In this document: positions 40,350-41,701 of the stretch, piece by piece
Layout: the number at the start of each line of letters is the position of its first letter
Position numbering within the stretch: the first letter of the stretch is position 1
Made by a program: the position numbers and the translations under genes
Notes under the pieces: model-generated
What the model was told of the DNA's origin: nothing
The model's input: only the letters and a program-made list of their open reading frames with translations
The model's database searches: none
Assembly (NCBI GenBank): GCA_028280305.1
Contig: JANQMC010000012.1
Span: 62,001 to 126,000, forward strand
Length of the DNA stretch: 64,000 bases
Source of the DNA: Pelagibius sp.
GTDB lineage: Bacteria; Pseudomonadota; Alphaproteobacteria; Kiloniellales; Kiloniellaceae
Direction of reading: 5' to 3'

Positions 40350-40619
40350 ATGCCGCGCGTGACTTTCACCGCCAACTTGCAGCGCCATCTCGACTGTTCT
40401 TCTTTGGATGCGGTGGGCGACAGTATTGCCGCGGTTATGGCGGACGTTTTTGAACAGCGTCCACAGATGCGCTCCTACATCGTCGACGACCAGGGCCAAC
40501 TGCGCCGCCATGTGAACATCTTTGTCGACAACGCCATGATCAAGGACCGCAAAGGGTTGACCGATCCTGTCGGCGCCGATGAGGAAGTTTTTGTGTTTCA
40601 GGCACTTTCGGGAGGGTAG
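40350..40619 (+). CDS. MoaD/ThiS-family ubiquitin-like protein ending in Gly-Gly
   Basis: An 89-residue beta-grasp protein. The sequence VTFTANLQRHLDC, a helix AVGDSIAAVMADVFEQRP, DQGQLRRHVNIFVDN and the tail EEVFVFQALSGG follow the MoaD/ThiS pattern, including the obligatory C-terminal Gly-Gly that is adenylated and thiocarboxylated by an E1-like enzyme. No moaE, thiG, thiF or moeB lies nearby, so a role in molybdopterin or thiamine synthesis is not indicated by context. The next gene, encoding a BNR propeller, starts 5 bp after the stop and its ribosome binding site sits in the Gly-Gly codons. Confidence 0.85.
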   Translation: MPRVTFTANLQRHLDCSSLDAVGDSIAAVMADVFEQRPQMRSYIVDDQGQLRRHVNIFVDNAMIKDRKGLTDPVGADEEVFVFQALSGG

Positions 40620-40624
40620 AGCCA

Positions 40625-41701
40625 ATGGCCGACTTCATTCTGGCGGCAACGCGCAAGGGTCTTTTTCGTCTTGGGATGGACGGTGATCCAAAACCGCGTT
40701 GTATCGGCTTTCTTGGCGACCCGGTGTCTGCGATCCTGCAGGACGAACATGACGGTGCGATTTATGCAGCGCTGAATCTCGGTCACTTCGGCGCGAAGCT
40801 TCACCGCTCCGACGACTTCGGCCAGACCTGGCAGGAACTGCCGGTTCCGGCCTATCCGCCCGGGGAAGGGGAGGATGCGCCGAGCCTCAACTTTATCTGG
40901 ACCTTGGCGCACGGTGGCCTGGATCAGCCGAAGCGCCTCTGGGCCGGTACGCTGCCCGGCGGTCTCTTTCGTTCCGATGATCGCGGGGAAAGCTGGGAGC
41001 TGGTTGAGTCCCTTTGGAACCAGCCCTCGCGCAGCGAATGGTTCGGTGGCGGCTACGATCAGCCGGGCATTCACACGGTCATCGTCGACGATCGGGGCAG
41101 AGTCCTCGTCGGGATTTCCTGCGGCGGCGTCTGGATCAGCGAAGACGACGGCGCCACCTGGGCTTTGGGTGGCAAGGGCCTGGCCGCGGACTACATGCCG
41201 CCGGACCGCCAGGACGACCCCAGCATCCAGGACCCGCACCGCCTTGAGATCTGCCGGGACGCACCCGACACCGTCTGGTGCCAGCATCACTGCGGTATCT
41301 TCCGCTCGGAGGACGGCGGCCATTCCTTCGTGCAAATCAATGACGTTAAGCCTTCAGGATTCGGCTTCGCGGTCGCCGCTCATCCCAGTGACCCCAAGAC
41401 CGCCTGGTTCGTACCGGCGGTGAAGGACGAATGCCGGGTGCCGGTTGACGGCCGCTTTGTCGTGACCCGCACCCGTGACGGCGGGGCCAGCTTTGAGACC
41501 CTGTCGCGGGGCCTGCCGCAGGCAGAGGCCTATGACTTGGTCTATCGGCACGCCCTGGCTGTCGGCGCGCACGGAAGGTCACTTGTCATGGGCTCGACCA
41601 CAGGCGCTCTCTGGCTCAGTGAGGACGCCGGGGAAAGCTGGTCGCTGTTGTCGGCGCACTTGCCGCCGGTGGCTCAGGTCTGTTTTGCCGACAGCCCCTG
41701 A
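40625..41701 (+). CDS. Cytoplasmic BNR/Asp-box beta-propeller protein
   Basis: A 358-residue protein of the sialidase-like/VPS10-like repeat fold. At least six Asp-box motifs are visible: RSDDFGQTW, RSDDRGESW, ISEDDGATW, RSEDGGHSF, RTRDGGASF and LSEDAGESW, spread over the whole length, indicating a six-bladed or larger propeller. There is no signal peptide, and the sialidase FRIP motif and catalytic Arg triad are not seen, so it is probably not a sialidase. Conserved-looking loops such as WCQHHCGIF and GGGYDQPGIHTVIV may bind a ligand. It is translationally linked to the MoaD/ThiS-like gene just upstream and probably works with that protein. Confidence 0.82.
   Translation: MADFILAATRKGLFRLGMDGDPKPRCIGFLGDPVSAILQDEHDGAIYAALNLGHFGAKLHRSDDFGQTWQELPVPAYPPGEGEDAPSLNFIWTLAHGGLDQPKRLWAGTLPGGLFRSDDRGESWELVESLWNQPSRSEWFGGGYDQPGIHTVIVDDRGRVLVGISCGGVWISEDDGATWALGGKGLAADYMPPDRQDDPSIQDPHRLEICRDAPDTVWCQHHCGIFRSEDGGHSFVQINDVKPSGFGFAVAAHPSDPKTAWFVPAVKDECRVPVDGRFVVTRTRDGGASFETLSRGLPQAEAYDLVYRHALAVGAHGRSLVMGSTTGALWLSEDAGESWSLLSAHLPPVAQVCFADSP

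Follow-up and report, generated by a model that had tools for sequence, protein, structure and literature searches.

Sulfur carriers known from bacteria are indicative of particular pathways, namely those of thiamine, molybdopterin, cysteine, tRNA and natural products, and they act with dedicated partners, as MoaD does with MoaE and CysO with CysM. Carriers of the CysO, SAMP1, MoaD and ThiS type have in common a beta-grasp fold, a C-terminal Gly-Gly, a dedicated partner gene and an E1 enzyme in the genome, all of which recur in the genome described here. Where a protein resembling these carriers has a conserved partner that is itself uncharacterised, an undescribed pathway is probable. The partner in this case is an Asp-box propeller of the same family as the Ralstonia eutropha protein of PDB entry 3b7f (Reut_B4987, YP_299179.1), a putative BNR glycosyl hydrolase. 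The passage of PMC2716378 that deals with 3b7f describes a seven-bladed Asp-box propeller and gives its function as 'Not known'. Two other propellers of this type bind the C-terminal tails of proteins, with other partners and in other settings (a receptor and photosystem II assembly, respectively). In the tunnel of sortilin, Ser283 holds the neurotensin carboxylate, a progranulin model adds Arg292, and residues added after the progranulin tail abolish binding (passages of PMC3115958), and in Ycf48 the D1 tail wraps around the propeller (passage of PMC10403576).

We analysed a stretch of 64,000 nucleotides from a Pelagibius genome (hereafter the window), in which two adjoining genes encode such a combination:

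40350..40619, + strand: 89-aa ubiquitin-like protein (beta-grasp, CysO/SAMP1 type) ending in ALSGG, stop TAG; from the open reading frame, weak ThiS/SAMP1/CysO matches and the AF2 fold
40611..40615, + strand: GGAGG, Shine-Dalgarno-like, for the propeller gene, within the Gly-Gly codons; from the sequence
40625..41701, + strand: 358-aa beta-propeller with Asp-boxes (BNR), no export signal, PDB 3b7f family; from the open reading frame, phmmer and Foldseek
40655..41548, + strand: codons of conserved propeller residues, candidate ligand/catalytic site (K11 40655-40657; H150 41072-41074; H205 41237-41239; Q220 41282-41284; H222 41288-41290; R308 41546-41548)

Both open reading frames lie where an earlier, sequence-only reading of this DNA had placed them. 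The small protein ends in FQALSGG followed by TAG, confirming the C-terminal Gly-Gly, and, as that reading had noted, 5 nt separate the stop from the propeller ATG at 40625 and the ribosome binding site overlaps the GGA GGG codons of the small-protein gene. A nucleotidyl-transferase gene lies 5' of the pair, preceded by dTDP-rhamnose-like genes (by eye), and a tryptophan 2,3-dioxygenase gene lies 3', together with a class-V aminotransferase gene with a weak kynureninase match. The reported absence of molybdopterin and thiamine genes around the pair also held, the window having no MoaE, no other ThiS match and no ThiF above cut-off.

The small protein missed the cut-offs of the curated carrier families. 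It scored 21.3 bits with Pfam ThiS, just below the cut-off of 22.5, 45 bits with NCBIfam SAMP1 (cut-off 60) and 16.7 bits with moaD_arch (cut-off 49.5); this position under the ThiS and SAMP1 cut-offs and the propeller partner are what distinguish it from the described carriers. Four fused relatives and the protein of locus L163 cleared the Pfam ThiS cut-off (31-56 bits). Its nearest solved structure by sequence was CysO (3dwg, E 2.7e-4), and the top Foldseek matches of its AF2 model (67-row alignment, pLDDT 88.3, pTM 0.79) were SAMP1 (3po0, E 1.1e-6), CysO (3dwg, E 1.4e-6), BexX/CysO and MoaD-related proteins. The small protein is, by its predicted structure, a member of the beta-grasp sulfur-carrier/ubiquitin-like fold, of the CysO/SAMP1 type.

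The same genome owns a separate MoaD (63.6 bits, ending in PVTGG), whose gene lies just ahead of that of MoaE on contig C163 and has a MoeA-like gene (by eye) on its upstream side, and the paired protein is therefore not its MoaD, in line with the sequence-only reading, for which it was not to be the only MoaD or ThiS of the genome. ThiG had no match in this metagenome-assembled genome (86.6% complete), which makes a ThiS role unlikely. A place in the CysO cysteine pathway was also rejected: no cysteine synthase or Mec gene is adjacent, the window neighbours being the nucleotidyl transferase and the tryptophan dioxygenase, and none stood out as conserved in the neighbour clustering of relatives. 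In a survey of 200 Pseudomonadota genomes, the nearest non-paired ubiquitin-like proteins were CysO-like proteins, whose gene neighbours differ from the pair. At all four loci of this kind that were read (L128, L135, L139, L145), the gene has, by eye, a threonine-synthase-like gene on one side and a cysteine-synthase-like gene on the other, and the tail of its product is AIAGGC, with a Cys after the Gly-Gly. Position 54 is Phe in 20/20 CysO-like proteins, whereas the paired proteins mostly have His or Asn, with Phe in 5 of the 24 rows from loci where the propeller gene comes first. The tree of ubiquitin-like proteins (156 rows, 90 columns) was poorly resolved, with the CysO-like rows scattered among paired lineages, so that it neither supports nor contradicts a single origin of the pairing.

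Adjacency of the two genes was found far beyond chance expectation. The propeller was present in 18 of 58 related genomes, and the small gene lay beside it at 17 of these 18 loci, the exception being L029. Among the best 80 loci listed in a collection of species genomes, which were ranked by similarity to the window propeller and hence favour the paired subfamily, 79 had the small gene upstream of the propeller gene and in the same orientation; the 80th (L101) starts at contig base 7 and is cut by the contig end. The gap between the genes had a median of 13 nt (range -4 to 767) in the 75 of these 80 loci where mechanical start choice worked. The 80 loci belong to Pseudomonadota, Planctomycetota, Acidobacteriota and Verrucomicrobiota (Pelagicoccus), together with one Chloroflexota and one Actinomycetota metagenome-assembled genome. 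Among the 200 evenly drawn Pseudomonadota, the small-protein model matched 60 genomes and the propeller 12, strongly in 11. Ten genomes had both genes, which were neighbours in 10/10, the small gene being first in six and second in four. Thus, ten of the 11 strong propellers were paired, that of G155 being strong but unpaired, and G195 gave a weak, partial match; four loci were read from the 50 other genomes with a small-protein match. The propeller was also found in 43 of 149 Actinomycetota (in G391 only via a weak match), with the ubiquitin-like gene adjacent or fused at 26 of the 30 best loci (all but L162, L168, L169 and L170), several of its products being divergent and weak with the first model. 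Plasmids gave 45 matched records, and in four of the six regions examined the small gene stood beside the propeller, with none at L115 and L116. Over all propeller loci and with a rebuilt model, 136 of 146 (three of the 146 being repeats) were paired: 108 with the small gene first, 24 with the propeller gene first and 4 fused. The ten unpaired loci were L029, L101 (contig end), L115, L116, L158, L159 (weak), L162, L168, L169 and L170.

The strict pairing proposed from the window alone therefore holds in different phyla, whichever gene comes first and also in fused form, well beyond close relatives. The two genes form a real, widespread and apparently uncharacterised two-protein unit, whose products very probably work together; their persistence as neighbours in many bacterial groups, with occasional fusion, points to an uncharacterised two-protein machine. 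As to what the machine does, we tentatively favour, at somewhat less than even weight, a carrier chemistry that depends on an E1 and has the propeller as the accepting enzyme.

Clustering of the neighbouring open reading frames, at 99 and at 121 loci, revealed no third gene shared across lineages. In the 121-locus clustering the small gene itself formed the largest cluster (67 loci), and the next one (17 loci, median distance 3.6 kb) was ABC-ATPase-like by eye; clusters of 14, 12, 11 and 10 loci contained no member from actinobacteria or from the propeller-first type. Since the small gene was joined in only 67 of the 121 loci, a short or divergent third gene may have been missed. VOC, YciI/DGPF and ECF-sigma-like genes occur near the pair at a few unrelated loci (L113, L061, L196) and are not conserved overall. 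The idea of a thioquinolobactin-like cluster, raised by the downstream Trp-dioxygenase and kynureninase-like genes of the window, gained no support from the neighbour clustering, in which no such gene stood out across relatives. PADLOC returned no match for a defence system, and a phage origin was rejected after one weak PHROG match of unknown function and a comparison of a single propeller of the propeller-first type with viral contigs, which found no relative. The patchy distribution of the propeller (18/58 relatives, 12/200 Pseudomonadota, 43/149 Actinomycetota) would suit a horizontally moving cassette whose genes have no joint function, an explanation that is very improbable because the link survives re-ordering and fusion and the neighbour clustering brought up no conserved mobile gene.

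Gly-Gly was present in 135 of the 136 paired ubiquitin-like proteins; it forms the very end of the protein in 119, lies 1-25 residues before the end in 12 and is internal in the 4 fusions. The sole exception is a Nonomuraea pair (L117, 7105-7392), in which the protein ends in PALA, just short of Gly-Gly. The fusions (L174, L178, L183, L185), all from Actinomycetota, consist of the ubiquitin-like protein, Gly-Gly, roughly 4-24 residues and the propeller in one open frame; both ThiS and BNR exceeded the Pfam cut-offs in 4/4, although any single one of the four could be a sequencing error. Sister genes of the fusions encode short tails past the Gly-Gly (GGER, GGTA, GGS, GGAYG, GGAS). Retention of Gly-Gly even where it is not terminal suggests either later trimming, by which a free Gly-Gly would be produced in the fusions and extended forms, or a structural role. 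Two copies of the pair from metagenome-assembled genomes (L062, L037) have a broken reading frame or run on past Gly-Gly at the C-terminus, possibly from assembly error or decay.

The propeller is a member of the 3b7f-type Asp-box family, with a full-length match in sequence and fold: residues 5-352 matched 3b7f in phmmer (E 1.2e-51), and a tandem model of an orthologous pair matched it in Foldseek (E 2e-34, TM 0.88 by target length). Relatives in Cupriavidus (L058, L114) do have a ubiquitin-like neighbour. The six Asp-boxes ([ST]x[DN]xGxx[WFY]) counted in the sequence-only reading start at residues 62, 117, 172, 228, 283 and 332. BNR, BNR_6 and Sortilin-Vps10 were the only Pfam families above cut-off, and an identity as a sialidase or glycoside hydrolase was discarded (NeuramTDE0471, 13 against a cut-off of 900 bits; glycosyl_F510_1955, 59.2 against 175), with no hydrophobic N-terminal signal stretch by eye; here, too, the earlier description was upheld.

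Residues K11, H150, S165, H205, Q220, H222 and R308 were each found in no fewer than 133 of 135 paired propellers, as well as in 8/8 unpaired relatives (the weak, different propeller of L159 was left out), and D268 (129/135) and R271 (127/135) were slightly less constant. As the set is identical where no ubiquitin-like gene is adjacent, the site belongs to the propeller family at large rather than to the pairing, and this family-wide conservation favours a ligand or enzyme site over a mere conjugation lysine. The sequence-only reading had left the propeller as conjugation target, adaptor or enzyme, and this result speaks against the simple target role among the three. A system of protein modification, in which the small protein would be conjugated in the manner of SAMP or Urm1 and the propeller would be target, adaptor or E3-like specificity factor with Lys11 as a possible acceptor, draws on SAMP1 as top structural match, on Lys11 in 133/135 paired propellers and on the Gly-Gly retained at the junction in 4/4 fusions. 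We consider it unlikely, since Lys11 is equally present in 8/8 unpaired relatives, hence not pair-specific, and the neighbour clustering revealed no conserved third gene, whatever its kind.

E1-dependent chemistry at the propeller, the reading that we favour, would draw on an activating enzyme encoded elsewhere in the genome. The Pelagibius genome encodes one strong E1-family protein (263 bits, contig C78), beside a cysteine-synthase-like gene (by eye). Of 61 pair genomes, 60 had a match to the E1 family (PF00899), which scored at least 220 bits in 58 and less in G276 and G289; G257 gave no match. MoaE was found in 59/59 pair genomes tested (two of the 61 were left out), in G261 and G288 by partial matches. 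Among the 149 Actinomycetota, MoaE occurred in 42/43 propeller genomes versus 54/106 others (Fisher p 3.6e-9), or 42/43 versus 42/106 without 12 weak matches, the 43 being genomes with the propeller, in which pairing was checked at the 30 best loci only, 4 of them unpaired. E1 (at E 1e-40) occurred in 41/43 propeller genomes versus 68/106 others, the misses being G410 and G431. Strong MoaE was found in 40/41 propeller genomes versus 42/68 others within the E1-positive actinobacteria (p 8e-6), and in 34/35 versus 27/43 among actinobacterial genomes larger than 2.6 Mb (p 2e-4, after removal of 12 genomes without a known size). In Pseudomonadota, the difference was not significant (12/12 propeller genomes versus 149/188 others, p 0.13). 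These co-occurrence statistics, which ignore phylogeny and lifestyle, fit either a requirement for MoeB or a link to the molybdenum cofactor. A direct service of the pair to the metabolism of this cofactor or of molybdoenzymes (modification, storage or insertion), which would be compatible with the other readings, could account for MoaE in all 59 pair genomes tested and for the excess of strong MoaE in E1-positive actinobacteria. It seems improbable to us, because the neighbour clustering showed no conserved cofactor gene next to the pair, the association was not significant in Pseudomonadota, and shared lifestyle or phylogeny could yield the same pattern.

The modelling of a complex, proposed in the sequence-only reading, was carried out on an orthologous Lysobacter pair (L107) joined as a tandem, with the intergenic stop read as Ser and 15 paired rows plus unpaired rows as AF2 input. 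The model reached pLDDT 89.6 and pTM 0.85, with a 29-residue linker (101-129) below pLDDT 50. For 500 residues, a d0 of about 7.9 Å and a propeller that makes up about 73% of the tandem, we estimate a pTM of about 0.7 (0.70-0.72) if the ubiquitin-like protein floated free, whereas 0.85 would need that protein placed with roughly 4-5 Å expected error. AF2 thus probably places it on the propeller, and the pTM implies a defined contact at the level of a predicted model. Mean-field DCA, run with 133 of the 136 pairs (Neff 97), detected no inter-protein couplings above the intra-protein noise, and the distances of the two proteins correlate (r 0.88), a value that lacks a species-tree baseline and is not counted as evidence. 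Sortilin and Ycf48 were among the Foldseek matches of the tandem model. By analogy with the tails bound by these two propellers, and with MoaD in MoaE, the ALSGG tail may enter the propeller pore, which the invariant residues presumably line.

In the carrier chemistry that we favour, a housekeeping E1 of MoeB/ThiF type would activate the Gly-Gly end of the ubiquitin-like carrier. The propeller, as the dedicated partner, would dock the carrier and most likely receive its C-terminal tail in the pore, between the invariant Lys, His, Gln and Arg presumed to line it. The activated tail, most likely a thiocarboxylate, could then serve as sulfur donor to a small substrate, like MoaD in MoaE or CysO in CysM. 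This reading is supported by adjacency across phyla, order flips, fusions, the Gly-Gly of 135/136 paired proteins, the likeness of the small protein to SAMP1, CysO and MoaD in fold, the predicted contact, the tails bound by sortilin and Ycf48, and the co-occurrence with E1 and with the molybdenum-cofactor pathway. Against it, the invariant residues are equally kept in the 8/8 unpaired relatives, so that the site may not need the ubiquitin-like protein; the Nonomuraea protein lacks Gly-Gly, and 12 of 136 tails and the 4 fusions carry residues after it, an addition that in sortilin abolishes binding; G257, G410 and G431 gave no E1 match; and the MoaE association was not significant in Pseudomonadota. 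Several of these observations would also suit a non-covalent partnership without E1 chemistry, in which the propeller would be an enzyme, the small protein its obligate subunit, chaperone or regulator, and the Gly-Gly a plug or structural element: the fusions with internal Gly-Gly, the tail residues in 12/136, L117, the propeller site conserved without the ubiquitin-like protein and the contact predicted by AF2. We judge it rather unlikely, as Gly-Gly in 135/136 proteins, fusions included, is more than a plug would seem to need, and E1 and MoaE co-occur with the pair.

The carrier reading can be extended to a new bacterial ubiquitin-like system, comprising a CysO/SAMP1-type protein, a shared MoeB-type E1 and, in some Actinomycetota, a precursor in which Gly-Gly joins the ubiquitin-like protein to the propeller, with the activated tail handed to the propeller enzyme in a process tied to cells that make molybdenum cofactor; taken as a whole, this picture is less likely than not. 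No description of the pair was found in a literature search whose coverage mostly ended short of subscription journals and preprints, and no paper on the Pseudomonas aeruginosa copy was found through guessed locus tags. Term searches of three surveys of prokaryotic ubiquitin-like and beta-grasp proteins (PMC1779556, PMC1949818, PMC2948915) gave no mention of BNR or sialidase, and in PMC1949818 one unrelated beta-propeller abbreviation. In databases, the pair goes by the names 'MoaD/ThiS family protein' and 'exo-alpha-sialidase'. It occurs in environmental bacteria, including Burkholderiaceae, Oxalobacteraceae, Pseudomonas, Planctomycetota and Actinomycetota, and a concrete partner is now available for a propeller family that has a crystal structure, lacks a known function and goes under misleading 'exo-alpha-sialidase' names. 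If the carrier chemistry holds, the propeller would be, to our knowledge, the first Asp-box acceptor for a sulfur carrier or ubiquitin-like protein, and the orphan structure 3b7f would gain a function.

Some individual loci show further arrangements. At L071, one ubiquitin-like gene is flanked on both sides by propeller genes. The unpaired propeller genes of L115, L168 and L169 adjoin a uracil-DNA-glycosylase-like gene (by eye), and the unpaired relative on a plasmid of Rhodobacter sp. CZR27 (L116) lies beside the ergothioneine genes egtB and egtD.
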